Shown piece by piece: positions 22,274 to 33,087 of a DNA stretch of 64,000 nt (position 1 is the first letter of the stretch; each line of letters starts with the position of its first letter). The notes under the pieces are model-generated. The model saw nothing but the letters and a program-made list of their open reading frames with translations, was not told the DNA's origin and did no database searches. The translations under genes were made by a program, and so were the position numbers. This stretch comes from Verrucomicrobiota bacterium (GTDB lineage Bacteria; Verrucomicrobiota; Verrucomicrobiia; Limisphaerales; J093), in contig JAKLFY010000008.1 of assembly GCA_022710935.1 (NCBI GenBank), positions 1-64,000 of the forward strand, given 5' to 3'.

Positions 22274-23850
22274 TCACCGCTCGCTGGAAGCGCCCCCGCC
22301 GGCGTAGGTGTCGTAAACGTGTTGGTACACCGCCTCACACTTGGCTCGGTACAGGTCCGGCGTGTAGGCCCGTGGCAGCTTGTCCAGGGACTCCTCGATG
22401 CACAGCCGCACCGCTGCCCGTGATTGCTGGCGCTTGCGCCAATCCAGCACCAACCGCTTTGCCTTGAGCGTGTGCAGCATGTCCTGGGCGATCTTCTTCA
22501 CCGCCTTACGTTCCTTGGGTGTGATTTCCACGGGCGGCTTGGTCAGAATGTCGAACACGGTCAATTCCTCATCGCTCAACTGCTCGCGGACATGCCGTTG
22601 TTCTTCGTCGTTCAGGCTTTGGGCCAACCGCAGCAGTTGCTCGTACGTCTCCTCCACGTTGGCCGAACCCGCGTTGTATTCGTCAATGAGCGCCTGGAAT
22701 TTCTGCAAGAAGTCGGTCCGGCTCCGGTTTATGGCCATCATCGCCTGCAACTTGACCGCGATGGCTGCCCGCAACCGTTCGATCTCCGCCCGTTTGTGCG
22801 CCTTCTTGAAGAACTTCCGCAACGCGTCGAAGTCGATCTTGCTCAGGTCCAGCGGTTCGGCTCTCTCCGTGAACCTGTAGCCCGCCGTGGCAATCGACTT
22901 GTCCAGCACGCCCTCGATCTGGGTCATCACCCCGGAAATGTCCACCGGCGGGAGCAACGCCCGGATCATGTCGGCCAGGGTGGCAAACAACGCGCACACC
23001 GGGGCAAACTGGCTCGCGCTCGTGTCGGGCAGGATCGCTCGATAGACGACCGTCGTCCGAGCCGCCAGACCGAGGAATTGCCGCTTCGAGTCGTCGTTCA
23101 CCAGAATCGCATCCCGCACGTCCTTCAGCGCCTTCACCCGTTCCAGACCGCTCGTGAACAACACCGCGTCCACCTTCACGCCCCGCGCCGCACAGAACTC
23201 GACCGCCTCGGCAATGGCCTTCTTCAGCATCGCGATGAGTTCCTGTTTCGCTTCGACGGGCGTCCTGCCGCCAATACCGCCGCCCGCCCCGCCGCCGGCG
23301 TAGATCGACAGCGCCTTTTGCAGGTGGTGGAACACGCCCACGTAATCCACGATCAGGCCGTTGACCTTGTCGCGGAACACTCGATTGGCGCGGGCGATGG
23401 TCTGCATCAACGTGTGATTCCGCAGCGGCTTGTCGAGGTAGATGGTCGAGCAACTGGGCACGTCGAACCCCGTCATCCACATCGCGCACACGAACACCAG
23501 CCGGAACGGATCGTCCGGGTCCTTGAACTTCGTCCCCAGGTCCTCCTTCACCATCCGCTGCCGGTGTGGCGTGATGTCGAGGCCCTTGGCCTTGAAGTCA
23601 GCGGCTTCATTCTGGGCCTGTGACACCACCACCGCCATGTCGGTGGTCTTCATCCAGTTCAACGTGTCCAGGATGGCGTCGTGTTCCTCCGGCGTGGCCT
23701 TGGCCAACGACTCTTTCAGTGTGGCCTCGTGCTTGGTCCACTGCGCCTTCACCTTGTCGTACATCCGCACCGCCGTCAGCTTGTCGATGCAGACCACCAT
23801 CGCCTTCCCCTTGAAACCGCGTCCGGTGAAATGCGATTCCAGGTCTATCG
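22274..23850 (-). pseudogene. hsdR: 3' half of a type I restriction enzyme R subunit (hsdR remnant)
   Basis: About 525 residues of HsdR-like sequence starting abruptly at DLESHFTGRGFKGKAMVV. The second motor domain is present (GKAMVVCIDKLTAVRMYDKV, MWMTGFDVPSCSTIYLDKPL, and motif VI in LMQTIARANRVFRD). It is followed by the C-terminal helical region. The nuclease domain and first motor domain with Walker A and B, about 450-500 residues in a complete HsdR, are missing, and no hsdM or hsdS is nearby. The open frame runs a little further to 23875 (TTG), but the extra residues are antisense to the cupin-like fragment. It should be inactive as a restriction enzyme. Confidence 0.85.
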
Positions 23851-24275
23851 CCACCACGGCTTCTCGACGAAACAAATCGGTTCCTACGAGCCGCTGATGG
23901 AGGGCGACCAGATCGTCGCGTGCGCCCAGGAGGCGATTCCGGTGCGCGGCTGCTTCGAATGCCTGGCTCTATCGCCTGAACACCTGGGGCCGTTCGCCTT
24001 CGTTGCTCGTCTTCCCCGACCTGCGGGACCTCCGCCGTTACGAACAGCATCCCCTGGAGCCGGGCCTCTTCATCTATATCCCGCCAGGCACTGGCCACCG
24101 CGGCCTCGACGTGTTTGTCAACGTGCTGACCATCCCCGGTTTCAAGCCGCACAACGAGTACTACCTCGATCGCGATATCCGCGATGCCGCGGGCGGCGCG
24201 GCGCCGTTCAACGAGAACCTGATCGGCGCCAAAAACTACGAGCGGATCGAAGACCTGTTGCTGACAGACCTTTAA
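23831..24275 (+). pseudogene. Broken cupin-like gene (5' end lost, one-base frameshift)
   Basis: Two GC3-rich reading frames form one protein. Frame one gives HHGFSTKQIGSYEPLMEGDQ and onwards (from about 23850). Around 23943-23957 it must jump to the frame that reads NAWLYRLNTWGRSPSLLVFP and ends ERIEDLLLTDL at 24275. Removing one base near 23957 restores a single frame, so this is a +1 insertion (or an assembly error). The text LFIYIPPGTGHRGLDVFV looks like a cupin strand with a metal His, but I cannot name the family. The start is not found; the upstream DNA belongs to the hsdR remnant. Confidence 0.5.
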
Positions 24276-24415: not shown

Positions 24416-24474
24416 GCGACAGCCCTTTTGCATCGGGGCTTGCAGGCGGGCCGCGCTTTTGGCGAACTGAGGAC

Positions 24475-27309
24475 ATGTCAAATCCATTCCTTCACCTGTG
24501 GGAGCAGGCGTTGCGGCCCGGTCGGGCGGCCATGTCTGCGGTCGGGTTGGCTCTGGTCCTGGCCGCCGCCGGGAAGGCGGCGAACGCGGCGGCAATACCG
24601 CTGCCCGAACATCCACGGCCCGACTTCGAGCGCGTCGAGTGGTTGAATCTAAACGGTTCGTGGCAGTTCCGGTTCGACAAGGACAACGCGGGCTTGGGGG
24701 GCGGTTGGGCCGCCGGACAGGAGGCGTTCCCGCTCAAGATCACCGTCCCATTTCCCTGGGGCTCAGCCTTGTCCGGGGTCGGAAACGAGGCAGACATCGG
24801 CTGGTATTCCCGGCAGATCCGTGTGCCGGCGGAATGGCGGGGCAAGCGTGTCTTCCTCGTGGTCGGGGCATCCGATTGGCTGACCCGCGGGTGGCTCGAT
24901 GGCCAGTCGATCGGGGAACACCGCGGCGGGTACACGCCGTTCGAGTGGGATCTGACGTCGGTCGTCAAGTGGGGCGAGGATCAGCGGTTGGTTCTGCGTG
25001 TCGATGACACGCCGCATGCCTTCAAGCTCGAAGGCAAACAGGGCTACGGCCCCGCCAAGGGCGTCTGGCAGACCCTTTACCTCGAGGCGCGTCCGGAGGC
25101 CCATCTGGCGTCCCTGCACTTTCAGCCGGATGTGGACGGGGCGAAAGTTGTTGTGAAGGCGGAATTCAACCGGCCACTGGCAGGCGAAGGGAAGCTGCAG
25201 TTGCGCGCGCGCGATCAGGGTTTTCCGGACATGACGGTGCCGGTGCCGGCGGGCGCGGGCGAGTTCGAGTTTGCGCTGCCGATTTCCCGGCCGCGCTTGT
25301 GGTCGGTCGAAGATCCGTTCCTGTACGAGGTGGAAGCGGTGCTGGCGGCCGGCGGGGCTCAGGACCGCGTGTCGACGTATTTCGGCATGCGCAAGATCAG
25401 TGTCATCGACCTGCCGGGCACCGATTTTCCGCACATAGCGCTCAACGACCGACCGGTGTATCTCCAGATGGCACTCGACCAGGCCTATCATCCGGATGGC
25501 TTTTACACCTATCCGAGTGACGAGTTCATGCGCGACGAGATCCTGCGGTCGCGCCGGATTGGCCTGAACGCGAACCGGCTGCACGTCAAGATCGACGTGC
25601 CCCGCAAGCTGTACTGGGCCGATCGCCTGGGCCTGCTGCTTATGTGCGACGTGCCCAACAGTTGGGGCGAGCCGGACGCCGAGATGCGTTGGGAGATCGA
25701 CCACGCGCTGCGAGGCATGATCCGGCGCGATTTCAATCACCCGTCCATCTTCTCCTGGGTGCCGTTCAACGAGACGTGGGGGCTGTTCACGAAGCAAGGC
25801 GACAAGCGGGTGTATCTGCCCGAAACCCAGGAGTGGGTGGCCTCGGTCTATCGCCTGGCCAAGGCGTTGGACCCGACCCGGCTGGTCGAGGACAATTCCC
25901 CTTGCAACTACGATCATGTCGAGACCGACATCAACAGTTGGCACGCCTACCTGCCCGGCTACGCCTGGCGTGAATCGCTGGCCCAAGTGACCAGAGACAC
26001 ATACCCCGGATCGGCCTGGAACTTCATCGGCGGACGCAAGCAAGGGCGCCAGCCCCTGCTCAACAGCGAGTGTGGGAACGTGTGGGGCTATGAGGGCAGC
26101 ACCGGCGATGTCGATTGGAGCTGGGACTATCATATCATGATGAATGAGTTTCGGCGTCACCCGAAGATTTGCGGCTGGCTCTACACGGAGCACCACGACG
26201 TCATCAACGAGTGGAACGGCTACTACCGCTATGATCGGTCCGAGAAGATCACCGGCCTCGAAGACCTGGTGCGCGGCATGAGCCTCAACGATCTTCATGG
26301 CCCGTTCTACATCTCGACCGGCAGCGATCTGTGCCGCGATGTCAAACCGGGCGAGGTGGTCGAGGTGCCTCTCTGGGCTTCGTTCATGACCGGTCACGCT
26401 CCGGGGCCGGCCCTGCAGATTAATGTCCAGACTTTTGGCTGGGACACCCTGGGCCAAACCTGGACCCTCGGACATGAGGTGCGGCCAGTCCCGTTCCGCC
26501 CCTGGATGTCCGAGGCCCTGGCCCCGCTCAAGTTGAACATGCCGCGCGCCGACGGGCTGCTGATCGTGGCGCTCCGGCTCGAAACACCGGCCGGCCTGCC
26601 GCTGCATCGCAACTTCACCACCTTCCGCGTTGCCAACGGCCCCGCGCCGCGCGATGAGACCCGCCAGGCCCAATCGGCGTCCGTCCGTGTCGTCCGGTTT
26701 GCCCCCCAGACCTTCAGCGCGGCGCAGTGGTCGCTCAAACAATGGAACGTCCTCGATGGCCTGAAGGCGAACGGCGCCGGACACGGCTTCTTCGAGTACC
26801 GGGTCGCGTGGCCGGCCGGGCTCGCACCCGCGAAGGTCGGCGGTGTGTCTCTGCTCCTCGAAGCCTCGGCCAAGCAGTTGTTCGGCAAGGACCGCGAGGG
26901 GAGCGGACAGCAGGACGGCGATTACATGCGTGGCAGAGGGACTCTCGACCCCAGCCTCAATCCGAACGCCTACCCAATGACCGACACGGCGCGGTTCCCG
27001 AGCGCCGTGCGGATCCGCGTCAACGGGGTCCCGGCCGGCCTGTTCGATTTGCCCGACGATCCCGCCGATCATCGGGGCATCCTCTCGTGGCACGCCCAGT
27101 TGCGAGACAGGAAACTGCGCGAGGCCGGGTCGTATGGATACCTCGTTCGCGCCGACCTGCCGGCGGAGAGCGTGCGCACCGCGGCGGAGAGCCGTGAGTT
27201 TGTGATTCGACTCGAAGTCGACGCCGGACTGCCGGGCGGGCTGGCCATTTATGGGGAGCGGTTTGGACGGTACCCGGTGGATCCGAGCCTGGTGTTCGAA
27301 TTGAAGTGA
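24475..27309 (+). CDS. Glycoside hydrolase family 2 enzyme (beta-galactosidase/glucuronidase-like), secreted
   Basis: 944 residues. Signal peptide (SAVGLALVLAAAGKAANA, about residues 20-37). The order is the GH2 one: sugar-binding jelly roll (LNGSWQFRFD; FPWGSALSG), immunoglobulin-like domain, then a TIM barrel. The acid/base Glu433 lies in SWVPFNETWG and the probable nucleophile Glu532 in LLNSECGNVWG. A C-terminal beta-rich extension of about 300 residues follows. The substrate is uncertain. I chose the ATG at 24475 because the frame upstream runs through the MITE-like element. The stop overlaps the GTG start of the GH84 gene. Confidence 0.85.
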   Translation: MSNPFLHLWEQALRPGRAAMSAVGLALVLAAAGKAANAAAIPLPEHPRPDFERVEWLNLNGSWQFRFDKDNAGLGGGWAAGQEAFPLKITVPFPWGSALSGVGNEADIGWYSRQIRVPAEWRGKRVFLVVGASDWLTRGWLDGQSIGEHRGGYTPFEWDLTSVVKWGEDQRLVLRVDDTPHAFKLEGKQGYGPAKGVWQTLYLEARPEAHLASLHFQPDVDGAKVVVKAEFNRPLAGEGKLQLRARDQGFPDMTVPVPAGAGEFEFALPISRPRLWSVEDPFLYEVEAVLAAGGAQDRVSTYFGMRKISVIDLPGTDFPHIALNDRPVYLQMALDQAYHPDGFYTYPSDEFMRDEILRSRRIGLNANRLHVKIDVPRKLYWADRLGLLLMCDVPNSWGEPDAEMRWEIDHALRGMIRRDFNHPSIFSWVPFNETWGLFTKQGDKRVYLPETQEWVASVYRLAKALDPTRLVEDNSPCNYDHVETDINSWHAYLPGYAWRESLAQVTRDTYPGSAWNFIGGRKQGRQPLLNSECGNVWGYEGSTGDVDWSWDYHIMMNEFRRHPKICGWLYTEHHDVINEWNGYYRYDRSEKITGLEDLVRGMSLNDLHGPFYISTGSDLCRDVKPGEVVEVPLWASFMTGHAPGPALQINVQTFGWDTLGQTWTLGHEVRPVPFRPWMSEALAPLKLNMPRADGLLIVALRLETPAGLPLHRNFTTFRVANGPAPRDETRQAQSASVRVVRFAPQTFSAAQWSLKQWNVLDGLKANGAGHGFFEYRVAWPAGLAPAKVGGVSLLLEASAKQLFGKDREGSGQQDGDYMRGRGTLDPSLNPNAYPMTDTARFPSAVRIRVNGVPAGLFDLPDDPADHRGILSWHAQLRDRKLREAGSYGYLVRADLPAESVRTAAESREFVIRLEVDAGLPGGLAIYGERFGRYPVDPSLVFELK

Positions 27310-28691
27310 GCCTTGCGCGCACAGAAGCCGGATCGCCCCTCAACGGCGTGGTCGAGGGCTTTTACGGGCGGCCCTGGACACTTCGCCAGCGGCGAGCCCT
27401 GATCGATTGGTTGCACGGGGCCGGCCTGAATGCCTATCTGTACGCGCCAAAAGATGATCTCAAGCACCGCGCGCTCTGGCGCGAGCCTTACACGCGATCG
27501 GAGGCAGCCGGGTTGCGCGCGGTCGCCGATGCCTGCCGCAAACGCGGGGTGCAGTCCATCTACGCGATCGCTCCGGGCTTGGATCTCGCCGCCGCCAGGC
27601 CAAAAGAGACCGCCACTCTCATCGCCAAACTCGATCAGGTCCGCCGGCTTGGCGCATCCCACTGCGCGATTCTCTGGGACGATCTGCCCGCCGGACTGTC
27701 CGAGGAAGACCGGCGGATGTACGGCACCGTGGCCGCCGCCCAATGCGCCGTGGCCAATCGCGTGGCCGACGCGCTCGAACGGGACTCCCCCGCATCCCGG
27801 CTGCTCTTCTGTCCCACCGTCTACTGCGGGCGCATGGCCGAGCCGTCCGTCCGCCAATCTCCTTACCTTCGGGAGGTGGGCGAGAAACTCCGACCGGGCA
27901 TCGAGTTCCTCTGGACCGGTCCGCACATTGTGTCCGAGGCGATTCCGGCGAGCTCGATTCGCGCGCTGCGTCAGGTCATTGGACGCAAACCGATTCTCTG
28001 GGACAATCTCCACGCCAACGATTACGACAGCCGAAGGCTCTATCTGGGTCCGTACACGGGGCGTGCCCCTGCACTGCGGCAGGAGATCGGCGGGGTGTTG
28101 CTGAATCCCAACTGCCAGCTCGAAACGAATTTCGTCCCCATCCACACCCTGGGTGCCTGGTGCCGGTGCGCGCGCCCGCCCGCCGCGCGCACCGCATTCC
28201 GCAAAGCGACGGCGGCCTGGCTGCCCGCCTTCACCTGTCGCGGAGGCGCGACTCTCGAGATCGACGAGATCGGCCTGCTCGCCGATTTCTTCTATCTCCC
28301 GAGCGAGTTGGGGAATCGTGCCAAGGCGTACGTGGCCGACCTGAAACGCTTGCTGGGCGCGGCCCCGGACCAGTGGGGCGCAGTCGGGAGGCGTTTCGAA
28401 AGAACGAGCCGGCGAATTCTGGCACTTTGCGACAAGCTGACCCAGCTCGACGATCGCGATTTGCTCTACGCGCTCTATCCGCGCGTGTGGGAACTCAAGG
28501 AGACCGTGCTGCTGCTGCTGGCCTGGATCGCCTGGCGCCCTCACGCACCGAACCCCAAGGCGCGGTTTCGCTCGCCCGACTACCGCCCCGGCATCTTTCG
28601 CGGCGGATTCGCGGCAAGTATCGAGCGGCTCCTGCCGATGGACGACGCGGGGTTCTTCACTCCGGGAGTCTGGGCGCAATCCGATGAATGA
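27306..28691 (+). CDS. GH84-type beta-N-acetylglucosaminidase (O-GlcNAcase-like)
   Basis: 461 residues from a GTG that overlaps the GH2 stop. The N-terminal signature GVVEGFYGRPWTL (residues 14-26) and the catalytic pair Asp125-Asp126 in CAILWDDLP are those of GH84, which uses substrate-assisted catalysis on N-acetylglucosaminides. PILWDNLHANDY matches the conserved substrate-binding block. No signal peptide is visible, so it may act in the cytoplasm, unlike its secreted GH2 neighbour. It overlaps the following GNAT gene by 8 nt, and that partner resembles the C-terminal domain of animal O-GlcNAcase. Confidence 0.88.
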   Translation: MSLARTEAGSPLNGVVEGFYGRPWTLRQRRALIDWLHGAGLNAYLYAPKDDLKHRALWREPYTRSEAAGLRAVADACRKRGVQSIYAIAPGLDLAAARPKETATLIAKLDQVRRLGASHCAILWDDLPAGLSEEDRRMYGTVAAAQCAVANRVADALERDSPASRLLFCPTVYCGRMAEPSVRQSPYLREVGEKLRPGIEFLWTGPHIVSEAIPASSIRALRQVIGRKPILWDNLHANDYDSRRLYLGPYTGRAPALRQEIGGVLLNPNCQLETNFVPIHTLGAWCRCARPPAARTAFRKATAAWLPAFTCRGGATLEIDEIGLLADFFYLPSELGNRAKAYVADLKRLLGAAPDQWGAVGRRFERTSRRILALCDKLTQLDDRDLLYALYPRVWELKETVLLLLAWIAWRPHAPNPKARFRSPDYRPGIFRGGFAASIERLLPMDDAGFFTPGVWAQSDE

Positions 28692-29334
28692 CACGCAATT
28701 CGAATCGGGTTTTCACATCCGCCCATGTCTTCCGGCCGATCTCGAGGCCGCTTACGACGTCTGTCTGAAGACGGGCGATTCCGGGGCTGATGGCACGCAT
28801 TTGTACCGGGACGATCCTTCGGCTTTGGGGGATCTCTACGTGGGGCCGTACGTCGCCTTCGAGCCCGATCTGGCGTTTGTCCTCGAGGACGGCGCGGGCG
28901 TCTGCGGTTATGTGCTGGCGGCGCTGGATTCGGCGCGCTTTTACGAGCGTCTGCGGGCCGAATGGCTGCCGCCACTGTGCTCGAGGCATCCCGATCCCGA
29001 GGGCGACCCGGCGACATGGACCCCGTCGCAAAGGCTCTACCACGAATACCACCACTATCAGGTCTATTATCCGGCCTCTTTTCGCCCCTACCCCTCCCAC
29101 CTTCACATCGACCTGGCGCCGCGGGCGCAGGGCCGGGGTCAGGGGATCCGGATGATGCGCCACCAACTGGAGACGTTGGAGCGGCGCGGTTCGGCCGGCG
29201 TCCACCTGTGCATGAGCGCCGTGAATCACCGCGCGTACCGGTTCTATCGCAAGCTGGATTTCGACGAGCTTGCCCGGATTGGGGCTGGAGGCGACGAAGT
29301 GGTTTATTTGGGCAAACGCATCGAGAAACGGTGA
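28684..29334 (+). CDS. GNAT acetyltransferase resembling the HAT-like domain of animal O-GlcNAcase
   Basis: 216 residues. GNAT fold: IRPCLPADLEAAYDVCLKTG at the start, VCGYVLAALD on the central strands, the acetyl-CoA loop RAQGRGQGIRM near residues 151-161, and HRAYRFYRKLDFDELARI at the end. The blocks YVGPYVAFEP...FVLED...VCGYVLAALD...FYERL recall the C-terminal acetyltransferase-like domain of animal O-GlcNAcase (recalled, not aligned). The acetyl-CoA loop looks intact, so this one may be active. The start codon lies inside the GH84 gene, so the two are made together. Substrate unknown; free amino sugars or GlcNAc-derived products are a guess. Confidence 0.85.
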   Translation: MNDTQFESGFHIRPCLPADLEAAYDVCLKTGDSGADGTHLYRDDPSALGDLYVGPYVAFEPDLAFVLEDGAGVCGYVLAALDSARFYERLRAEWLPPLCSRHPDPEGDPATWTPSQRLYHEYHHYQVYYPASFRPYPSHLHIDLAPRAQGRGQGIRMMRHQLETLERRGSAGVHLCMSAVNHRAYRFYRKLDFDELARIGAGGDEVVYLGKRIEKR

Positions 29335-29616: not shown

Positions 29617-32600
29617 ATGAAATCCCTGACACGCCTTTTGCCGAGCGGTGGCTCGGCCTTGTTCTGCCTCGTCGCCGGGTTGGTGTTCGCCCCGCCCGGC
29701 GCGGCTCGCATCCTCGATGACTTCAACGACAATACAAAGACCGGCTGGACCGATTTCACGTTTATCCCGGGCTTCGGCCTGCCCGTCGAACAGGCTGGCC
29801 AGTTCCATTTCGACCAACAGCCGGCCAATCAAGACATCTTCAGCGCGAGCCAGAAGACCAGCGAACTCTTCGAGCTCAAGGAAGGCCGGACCATCGAATT
29901 CCGCGTCGATCTCATCGAGTCCGCCGGTGAGGATGCGTTTGCGGTGTTGGCGTTCATTCCGAATACCGGGGGCAATAACCCGGGCACCCTGGCGGGATAC
30001 GGCCTTGCCAAGGATCCAACCGATGTGCTCATCACCAAGGGCATCCAGAAGTATTTCGTTGAGGACGACGGCGTCACCGCCGAGCTGAAGAACGACAACG
30101 TCACGCTGGTCCTGAGACTCGCCGCCAAGAACGGAAACGTCACCGTCACCGGCAAGATCCTGGACAAGGACGCCGGCGACGCCGTGCTGTGGGAACGGAC
30201 GGTCGTGGATACGCCGGCGGCTGACATCATGGAGGGCGGCACCGATTCGCCAGCCGCGCCTTTCCTGACCACCGGCTACTTCACCCTGTACTGCTATCAG
30301 CAATACAGCGGGGACAAGATCTACTCGGTCCATTACGACAACGCGGAGGTCTTCGTCACCGAAGAGACGTTGATTGACGATTTCAACGACAACACCAAGA
30401 CCGACTGGACGGATTTCACGTTTATTCCCGGTTTCGGGATTCCCACTGAGGAAAACCAGCAGTTCCATTTCGACTTGTTGCCGGCCAACCAGGACATCTT
30501 CACCGCCAGCCAGAAGACCAGCCGGGTGATCGAACTCAAGGATGGCGAGCAGGTGCGTCTGGAAGTCGACCTGGTGCAGGACTCCGGCGAAGATGCCTAC
30601 GCGGTGGTGGCGTTCATCCCGAACACCGGTGGCAACAGCCCCGGCACATTGGCAGGTTACGGCCTGGCTAAAGACCCAACGGACGTGCTCATCACCAAGG
30701 GAGTTCAGAAGTACTTCATCGCCGATGACGGCGTCACCGCCGAGCTGAAGAACCAAAACGTCACCCTGGCGCTCACCCTCACGGTCCACAACGGCAATGT
30801 CGAGGCCTGCGCGCAGATCCTGGACAAGGACGACAACAACGCCGTGCTCTGGTCACGGACCGTCCTGGACACGCCCGCGGCCGATCTGATGCAGGATGGC
30901 ACCGATTCTCCCGCCGCGCCCTTCATCACCACCGGCTACTTCACCTTGTACTGCTACCAGCAGTTCAGCGGCGAGAGGCTCTATTCGGTTCACTATGACA
31001 ATGCCGTCCTCCACGCGCCGCCCGCCGCCGGCAACACCGCGGCTATTCTCTCGGACATCGCCCCTGCCGAATACGCCAACTTCCTGCCTGCCTCGACACA
31101 GATCGCGTTCAAAGTGACCGACGATCAACCGCTCGAAAACGAGAAAATCTCGGTCACACTCAATGGCGCCACCTTCACCACCGCCAACGGTCTGAGTGTA
31201 ACCGGGACGGGCAACAGCCGCACCGTCACCCTCGGCGGCCTGGCCGCCAACGTGAACTACGCGGCTGTCCTCTCGGTCGAGGACAGCGGCGGCCTCCAGA
31301 CCTCACGAAATCTCTACTTCGACACCTTCGCGGTCAACAGCCTCACCATCGAAGTTGAGGATTACAATTTCGCCTACGGCCAGTTCATCGACAACCCCGT
31401 CGTCGTCGGGGAGGGAGGCTATGATCCGGATGGATATAGCTTGCAGGCGGGAGTTTCGACGGTCGATTTCAGCGACACCCGCACCTCACCCAATGCAGAG
31501 GACACCAAGTATCGGCCCGATGATCCCGTGCGCATGACGCATGCCCTCGATCACGAGCGGGCCAAGTACGAGGCCGCGGGCGGCACGACCATGGGCGTGT
31601 ATGACTACGCTGTCGGCGACATCGCCGCCGGCGAGTGGATGAACTACACGCGCACTTTCCCCGCGGGCAATTACGAGGTCTATCTCCGCCAGGGCCTGGC
31701 CAACATGGCCACCGGCGAAAGCGTCCTCGAAGAAGTCACCGGCGATCCCACTCAACCGGATGCCGCCGCCACGCCGCTCGGCTCGTTCCTGGGTGCGCGG
31801 ACCGGATTCCAGTTTCGCAACTTCCCGCTCACCGATGGCACGGGGCAGAACAAGATCGTCCTCACCCTCTCCGGCAAGAAGACCTTTCGGTTGCGCCAGG
31901 TCACGCCGGATCCCGGTGACGGAGCGCGTTACCTCAATTACATGGTCTTCATTCCCGCCAGCGGGCCATCTGTGGATCGGGCGTCCATCACCTCCCTTTC
32001 GCCGGCGCCCGGCTCGGAGCTGAACACCGCGCTCCCGGTGATTGACGCAGTGATTCAGAACCGGACGACTTCCGTCAACCTCGGCACAGTGACACTGGAA
32101 GTGAACGGCCAGGTCGTCCCCGCCACGGTGACACCGACGGCTGCGGGCGCGACGGTGCACTACCCCATCGCGCCTCCTCCTCCCTCAGGCGCGATCAACA
32201 ACGCCAAGATCGCGTTCAAGGACAGCGAGGGAGTCGATATTGCCGCGGAGTGGCAGTTCAGCATTAACTACCTGAGCCTCGATCCCGCCAATCGTCAGCC
32301 CGGCCCAGGCAAGGACCGCGGCTTCTACGTCCGGGTGGTCCAAGCCGACCCCGCGTATGGACCCTACGAAAGCAGCCTCGAACGGGCCGAACTCCAACTG
32401 GCGCCCAACTCGACGATCCCAGCCATCCTCGACAAGAGCGTCACCGAGCAGTTGATCGAGATGTCCCAGGACGGTGGAACCGCCGGCTTCTTCCAAAAGG
32501 AATACCTGGTGCCGGGTTTGGACGAGACCGGGCTGACAGACGACTTCGCCGTCGAGGCGAACGCCTGGCTCGAGTTGGCGGCCGGTTCCTACCGGTTCAC

Positions 32601-33087
32601 CGTGATCAGTGACGACGGCTTCAAAGTCTCGTCCGGCGCCAGTCTGAGCGCCAAGACCCCCATCCTCGGCGCCCGCAACGGCGGAACCGCCAACGAAGTG
32701 ACGGGCACGTTCGAGTTCTATGTGCCGGTCACGGGTTTCTATCCGTTCCGCCTGGTCTGGTACGAGCGCGGCGGAAGCGCGCATGTGGAATGGAGCTCTG
32801 TGAACATGGCCAGCGGGGTTCGCACGCTGATCAACGACACGGAGGCCCAGGGCGCCATCAAGGCCTACCTCGATATCGTCCCGGCCCCGGCAGTCAAGGT
32901 GCAGTCGTCGGCCACCGTCGCCGGGGGCTATGCCGACGATGCCACCGCTGTCATCGACACGAACGCGAAGCGCATCACCCTCCCCTTGAGCGGTGCGGCC
33001 CGATTCTATCGGCTCGCCGGCGCCTCTGCGTTGACAATCACCTCCGTGCAGGTGCAAGGGGCGAACCTGATCATGATATACCAATGA
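29617..33087 (+). CDS. Large secreted PA14-domain protein with duplicated N-terminal modules
   Basis: 1156 residues. Signal peptide (ALFCLVAGLVFAPPGAA, about residues 14-30). Two near-identical modules follow (about 32-250 and 252-470), each beginning DDFNDNTKT.WTDFTFIPGFG, apparently from a roughly 660-bp in-frame duplication. Next come a fibronectin/Ig-like segment, a carbohydrate-binding-like domain (IEVEDYNFAYGQF...AGEWMNYTRTFP, near 575-770), and a PA14-like domain (SYRFTVISDDGFKVSSGA...FYPFRLVWYERGG, near 985-1060). It ends in the FYRLAG region seen in other secreted verrucomicrobial proteins. Probably a sugar-binding extracellular protein; no catalytic residues were recognised. It lies 282 bp after the GNAT gene. 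Confidence 0.8.
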   Translation: MKSLTRLLPSGGSALFCLVAGLVFAPPGAARILDDFNDNTKTGWTDFTFIPGFGLPVEQAGQFHFDQQPANQDIFSASQKTSELFELKEGRTIEFRVDLIESAGEDAFAVLAFIPNTGGNNPGTLAGYGLAKDPTDVLITKGIQKYFVEDDGVTAELKNDNVTLVLRLAAKNGNVTVTGKILDKDAGDAVLWERTVVDTPAADIMEGGTDSPAAPFLTTGYFTLYCYQQYSGDKIYSVHYDNAEVFVTEETLIDDFNDNTKTDWTDFTFIPGFGIPTEENQQFHFDLLPANQDIFTASQKTSRVIELKDGEQVRLEVDLVQDSGEDAYAVVAFIPNTGGNSPGTLAGYGLAKDPTDVLITKGVQKYFIADDGVTAELKNQNVTLALTLTVHNGNVEACAQILDKDDNNAVLWSRTVLDTPAADLMQDGTDSPAAPFITTGYFTLYCYQQFSGERLYSVHYDNAVLHAPPAAGNTAAILSDIAPAEYANFLPASTQIAFKVTDDQPLENEKISVTLNGATFTTANGLSVTGTGNSRTVTLGGLAANVNYAAVLSVEDSGGLQTSRNLYFDTFAVNSLTIEVEDYNFAYGQFIDNPVVVGEGGYDPDGYSLQAGVSTVDFSDTRTSPNAEDTKYRPDDPVRMTHALDHERAKYEAAGGTTMGVYDYAVGDIAAGEWMNYTRTFPAGNYEVYLRQGLANMATGESVLEEVTGDPTQPDAAATPLGSFLGARTGFQFRNFPLTDGTGQNKIVLTLSGKKTFRLRQVTPDPGDGARYLNYMVFIPASGPSVDRASITSLSPAPGSELNTALPVIDAVIQNRTTSVNLGTVTLEVNGQVVPATVTPTAAGATVHYPIAPPPPSGAINNAKIAFKDSEGVDIAAEWQFSINYLSLDPANRQPGPGKDRGFYVRVVQADPAYGPYESSLERAELQLAPNSTIPAILDKSVTEQLIEMSQDGGTAGFFQKEYLVPGLDETGLTDDFAVEANAWLELAAGSYRFTVISDDGFKVSSGASLSAKTPILGARNGGTANEVTGTFEFYVPVTGFYPFRLVWYERGGSAHVEWSSVNMASGVRTLINDTEAQGAIKAYLDIVPAPAVKVQSSATVAGGYADDATAVIDTNAKRITLPLSGAARFYRLAGASALTITSVQVQGANLIMIYQ

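Follow-up and report, generated by a model that had tools for sequence, protein, structure and literature searches.

A GH84 glycosidase, a GNAT related to the C-terminal domain of O-GlcNAcase, and a sugar permease form a widespread module in an order of Verrucomicrobiota

Introduction

What does a GNAT-family protein do beside a GH84 glycosidase, when the two proteins resemble two parts of animal O-GlcNAcase (OGA)? The question is raised by a pair of overlapping genes in the window analysed here, a stretch of 64,000 nucleotides, which an earlier note had read as a split OGA. The arrangement is ordinary in itself and already known from Oceanicola granulosus, where OgOGA has OgpAT immediately downstream (Rao et al. 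2013, PMC3814719). In that paper, the OgpAT structure was solved with acetyl-CoA and the human domain was shown not to bind acetyl-CoA. The further suggestion that such a pair could reveal the original role of the fused animal domain is plausible, and it is now testable.

Results

The gene pair in the window

The GH84 and GNAT genes occupy separate ORFs, not the one chain of animal O-GlcNAcase, and the 8-nt overlap between them was borne out (Table 1). Upstream, the stop of a GH2 gene and the start of the GH84 gene share 4 nt (27306-27309). Because the GH2 gene overlaps GH84 and GH84 overlaps the GNAT gene, cotranscription of all three is probable. As a neighbour of the pair, the GH2 gene was matched in the congener only. 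We rejected its identification as an exo-glucosaminidase, the nearest solved relative being a beta-glucuronidase, and also rejected a phage origin, as phage matches were absent. Elsewhere in the window, the ORF at 22274-23875 (minus strand) encodes the C-terminal portion of a type I restriction enzyme R subunit (T1RH-like_C, T1R_D3-like) and seems to have no N-terminal portion, and 29617-33087 encodes a probably secreted protein of 1156 aa that has a weak PA14 domain and, at its N-terminus, two repeats closely resembling each other.

Table 1. Positions in the window of the gene pair, its upstream neighbour and the protein features discussed in the text.
Feature	Position	Strand	Detail
GH2 gene, apparent signal peptide	24472..27309	+	upstream of GH84
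GH84 gene	27306..28691	+	GTG start, 461 aa ORF
Catalytic Asp125-Asp126 (human Asp174-Asp175)	27678..27683	+	alignment, 57/57 sequences
Stalk (dimerisation) domain, residues 317-453	28254..28664	+	second phmmer match segment, to the stalk of human OGA
Overlap of GH84 stop and GNAT start, 8 nt, ATGAATGA	28684..28691	+	
GNAT gene	28684..29334	+	ATG start, 216 aa ORF
Extra helices, residues 83-125 (acceptor tunnel in OgpAT)	28930..29058	+	model and alignment
His141, aligned with SsAT His187 (candidate catalytic base)	29104..29106	+	alignment
Acetyl-CoA P-loop, Q149-G-R-G-Q-G154	29128..29145	+	alignment

The GH84 protein

The GH84 protein matched the Pfam NAGidase model (E 2.4e-75). Its best PDB matches were human OGA, matched in the stalk as well as in the catalytic barrel, and OgOGA (2xsa) of Oceanicola granulosus, while the NagJ and BT_4395 types were far weaker matches in the PDB search. 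The stalk matched the stalk chain 5uhk_B with E 1.8e-14. Asp125-Asp126, which had been named as the catalytic pair, did align with the human aspartates. Nine residues that we take, from established knowledge of human OGA, to be catalytic or in contact with the sugar (Gly67, Lys98, Asp174, Asp175, Tyr219, Trp278, Asn280, Asp285 and Asn313) were all kept in the window protein and in essentially all of the 57 bacterial GH84 sequences aligned. The protein is a predicted beta-N-acetylglucosaminidase of the OGA type, with a TIM barrel and a stalk; it has no obvious signal peptide and would be cytoplasmic. The same genome carries a second, NagJ-like GH84 gene (G000:C212:15550-16443; L002, L084). An OGA-type GH84 (43% identity) was also seen on a Deinococcus psychrotolerans plasmid (L159), beside genes for a peptide-type ABC transporter and a GH3, with no annotated GNAT within 7 kb.

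The GNAT protein

Generic GNAT models gave only weak scores with the GNAT protein. Its PDB matches were OgpAT (3zj0, 2e-43), SsAT of Streptomyces sviceus (4bmh, 1e-38), the Trichoplax OGA pHAT (6r45, 8e-33) and human OGA (1e-22); after them came an unrelated GNAT at only 0.014, leaving OgpAT, SsAT and the pHATs as the sole strong relatives. Judged by these matches, kinship with OgpAT, SsAT and the OGA C-terminal domains is far beyond chance. Both proteins are thus homologous to animal OGA as had been claimed, the GNAT is nearer to the OGA C-terminal family than to unrelated GNATs, and all the sequence blocks quoted for it in the earlier note are present. A predicted structure (mean pLDDT 74, from a ten-sequence alignment) placed 6r45, 3zj0 and 4bmh ahead of all other GNATs in a fold search (TMq 0.78-0.81), leading the next GNAT by about ten orders of magnitude. 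Model helices 83-101 and 114-123 correspond to the alpha3-alpha4 insertion at OgpAT 78-125.

The acetyl-CoA loop, described beforehand as complete, is intact from Q149 to G154 and fits the pattern [Q/R]xxGx[G/A], and OgpAT has the same motif type. The human domain has lost this P-loop; with its own loop intact, the window GNAT is not a pseudo-HAT without an acetyl-CoA site. His141 is invariant in the order, with Glu or Lys at the position in animals, and in our alignment the P-loop and His141 were near-invariant among bacterial GNATs. The window protein is a putative acetyltransferase with its acetyl-CoA loop intact.

Co-occurrence of the two genes

In 40 relatives the GNAT was found in 22 and the OGA-type GH84 in 20, every GH84-positive genome also having the GNAT. 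A sample of 245 genomes of the order, counted with G039 (GH84 fragment at a contig end, under the search cut-off) and without G457 (NagJ-like match), held the GNAT in 107 and the OGA-type GH84 in 96. Both were observed in 94, GH84 alone in 2 and the GNAT alone in 13; the two GH84-only genomes gave partial matches, and in them the GNAT may be missed because of a contig end. Genomes within the order are not independent of each other, and a table using one genome per family (26 families) gave both genes in 8, the GNAT only in 1, GH84 only in 0 and neither in 17 (p 5.8e-6). The expected conservation of the pair in relatives was therefore confirmed, with the GNAT directly downstream of GH84 on the same contig and strand in 80 of the 94 genomes, usually at most 100 nt away. 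The remaining 14 kept both genes although no linkage was visible, a sign that the two are coupled in function and not just through cotranscription.

Outside the order, in 388 genomes of the phylum, the GNAT was matched only weakly and the GH84 matches were of the NagJ type. Divergent GNATs of the same broad family (L085-L095), about 26-40% identical over the matched parts, were observed elsewhere in the phylum; those placed in a tree branch apart, and OGA-type GH84 was not seen in the phylum sample. A contig scan with the GNAT as sole query found the congener and Actinomycetota only.

Among the bacteria surveyed, GH84 and GNAT are normally encoded by separate genes, and the word split, which implies a former fusion, was not supported. 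The lone fused case was in G026, of the same order (L068, G026:C2:21039-23426), a single frame of 795 codons that joins GH84, stalk, a linker of about 30 residues and GNAT, with an intact P-loop (QGRGWG). In three members of its genus the two genes are unfused, with stop codons between them. The fusion resembles animal OGA but its GNAT is apparently active, judged from the sequence; an assembly error is a possible cause.

A permease partner and other neighbours

The commonest neighbour of the pair was a PTS EIIC permease. It belongs to the lactose/cellobiose/chitobiose family (Pfam 6e-44, NCBIfam 8.5e-97) and matched Bacillus cereus ChbC (3qnq) with E 1.2e-67. It was present in 72 of the 245 genomes, 70 of them with the GNAT and 67 with both GNAT and GH84. 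In 51 genomes it lay at most 6 kb from the GNAT (same strand in 49), including 15 in which no GH84 was nearby. As a third partner the EIIC is new here, and the pair together with a sugar importer is a widespread module in the order. The genome of the window has one lone EIIC, on another contig (G000:C190:27919-29127; L164), adjoining an MFS-type transporter.

ChbC carries diacetylchitobiose, and its His250 and Glu334 matter. The EIICs of the order share its fold, aligning over residues 7-407, and keep Glu334, but have Asn in place of His250 in 26 of the 26 read. PTS_IIB (PF02302) was found in none of the 40 relatives, though control genomes gave matches. Given the replaced histidine and the missing IIB, the EIIC is probably a non-phosphorylating importer, and phosphorylating PTS uptake was rejected on the absence of IIB from those 40 genomes.

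NAGK-like kinase genes were near the pair in 9 loci and SIS sugar-isomerase genes in 7. Some lineages with no EIIC had ABC sugar permeases upstream of GH84. A DegT aminotransferase gene, closest to amino-sugar and AHBA-type enzymes, was near the GNAT in 11 loci. Plasmid-borne GNATs in sugar contexts were also observed with no GH84 nearby, adjoined in Falsirhodobacter by nagB, an amidohydrolase and a BadF-family ATPase, and in Duffyella by a sugar ABC transporter, a ROK regulator and a BadF-family ATPase. A Gfo/Idh/MocA gene overlaps the GNAT in Agrobacterium and is close to it in Duffyella. For some Streptomyces and Mesorhizobium copies of the GNAT, sugar context was absent.

Relation to the animal domain

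Positions at least 90% conserved in the order were compared between the N-terminal and tunnel part of the GNAT and its acetyl-CoA part. The Trichoplax pHAT kept 25 of 42 in the former and 5 of 25 in the latter (p 0.002), and the human domain 25 of 42 and 8 of 25 (p 0.04); the difference was not seen in OgpAT and SsAT. This uneven conservation agrees with the published retention of the acceptor cleft in the animal domain. In two trees the animal pHATs clustered with GH84-partnered GNATs and not with solo ones (support 96/92 and 97/91). Because the pHATs are long branches and an AU test leaves the alternative standing (p 0.36), descent of the animal pHAT from a GH84-partnered GNAT is suggestive only.

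Discussion

The nucleophile of GH84 is the 2-acetamido group of its own substrate (PMC4263850), and glucosaminides lacking the acetyl group should therefore resist the enzyme. We give a probability of about 0.5 to a reading in which the module serves cytoplasmic amino-sugar salvage and the GNAT N-acetylates glucosaminyl ends for GH84. We infer the GNAT acceptor, the EIIC cargo and the order of steps as follows. An amino-sugar saccharide or disaccharide would enter through the lone chitobiose/cellobiose-type EIIC, or in other lineages possibly through an ABC transporter. The GNAT would then transfer the acetyl group of acetyl-CoA to the amino group of glucosamine or of terminal glucosaminyl residues. 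Once it bears a 2-acetamido group, the product would undergo substrate-assisted cleavage by GH84, and the released GlcNAc would be phosphorylated by a NAGK-like kinase. This reading is favoured because of the co-occurrence of GH84 and GNAT, the linkage of the EIIC, the missing IIB and the kinase, SIS and ABC neighbours, together with the nagB, BadF and sugar ABC genes beside GNATs that have no GH84 nearby and the retention of the P-loop and His141. The occluded acceptor cavity of SsAT, which points to a small molecule, and the precedent of the fungal enzyme RmNag suggest the same. Against it, the EIIC and kinase candidates of the genome itself lie on other contigs, the DegT genes would equally suit another amino sugar, and some Streptomyces and Mesorhizobium GNATs stand apart from sugar genes.

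The Rhizomucor miehei protein RmNag is a GH3-GNAT enzyme whose GNAT region acetylates GlcN and (GlcN)2, and it cleaves (GlcN)2 only with acetyl-CoA present (PMC4680927). Like the pair studied here it couples a beta-N-acetylglucosaminidase to a GNAT, with GlcN oligomers acetylated and then hydrolysed; unlike it, the glycosidase is GH3 and not GH84. RmNag chains were absent among the phmmer matches of the window GNAT up to E 10; GNATs diverge strongly, and we treat RmNag as a functional parallel rather than as a member of the same group. Clostridium acetobutylicum GlmA is, by the description in PMC4680927, a GlcN/glucosaminide N-acetyltransferase (Reith and Mayer 2011), and the likeness lies in an N-acetyltransferase step ahead of a beta-N-acetylglucosaminidase. 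The accessible text of PMC4680927 names OGA as a similar architecture and does not propose a glucosaminide-acetylation role for it; a full-text literature search joining the two terms returned nothing else.

It is possible, at appreciably lower odds, that the GNAT acetylates another small amino compound of the same pathway, for example another amino sugar made or used by the DegT and Gfo/Idh/MocA enzymes, and that GH84 cuts a related N-acetylated product. The DegT genes in 11 loci, the Gfo/Idh/MocA genes at the GNATs of Agrobacterium and Duffyella, and an SsAT cavity that fits small polar molecules are consistent with this, but DegT is found in a minority of loci only, GH84 and the chitobiose/cellobiose-type permease are the partners found most consistently, and nagB adjoins the GNAT in Falsirhodobacter. 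We consider it improbable that the GNAT acetylates proteins, or that it acts on GH84 without catalysis as a regulator or scaffold, the role proposed for the animal pseudo-HAT. Its partnership with GH84 is near-obligate, the two are fused in G026, and the animal domain needs no acetyl-CoA for its action and influences how OGA is regulated (PMC12494797); however, a pseudoenzyme need not keep the P-loop and His141 that bacteria hold almost invariant, GH84 was undetected in 13 sampled genomes with the GNAT, and unlinked and solo GNAT copies occur in other phyla. Animal-like cycling of protein O-GlcNAc, to which the OGA-type GH84 with its stalk and the presence of both OGA and OGT in Thermobaculum terrenum (PMC4683255) might point, was rejected as very unlikely because a GT41 OGT (PF13844) gave no match in the genome of the window (about 96% complete), and the neighbours are carbohydrate-import and catabolic genes.

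Returning to amino-sugar salvage, the module can be set against its known relatives. It shares with OgOGA (2xsa) and OgpAT (3zj0) the gene order, a GH84 with stalk followed by a GNAT, and an intact acetyl-CoA site, but belongs to a different phylum, and the accessible text of PMC3814719 includes neither a permease partner nor a genome survey. Human and Trichoplax O-GlcNAcase are alike in the two homologous domains, their order, the catalytic residues and the stalk. Animals carry the two domains in a single polypeptide (the human one has a long disordered insert), whereas the window encodes two proteins, and the animal pseudo-HAT cannot bind acetyl-CoA, in contrast to the intact P-loop here. 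SsAT (4bmh) shares the GNAT family, the P-loop and the candidate His base, but was studied as a lone GNAT and lies outside the GH84-partnered group in the tree.

A further proposal, which we hold only tentatively, is that the GNAT is a glucosaminide N-acetyltransferase enabling GH84 and that the animal pseudo-HAT descends from such a GNAT, having kept the sugar-binding half and lost the acetyl-CoA half, perhaps as an amino-sugar sensor. If the bacterial relatives do acetylate glucosaminides for GH84, the origin of the second domain of human OGA would become clear, and a specific ligand could be proposed for its acceptor cleft. Built on GH84, the module would then correspond to the fungal GH3-GNAT strategy for using N-deacetylated amino sugars, and would include an EIIC apparently working without a PTS. 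The arrangement is known, yet the module is well supported, has a new partner and has a testable function that bears on the question of human OGA.
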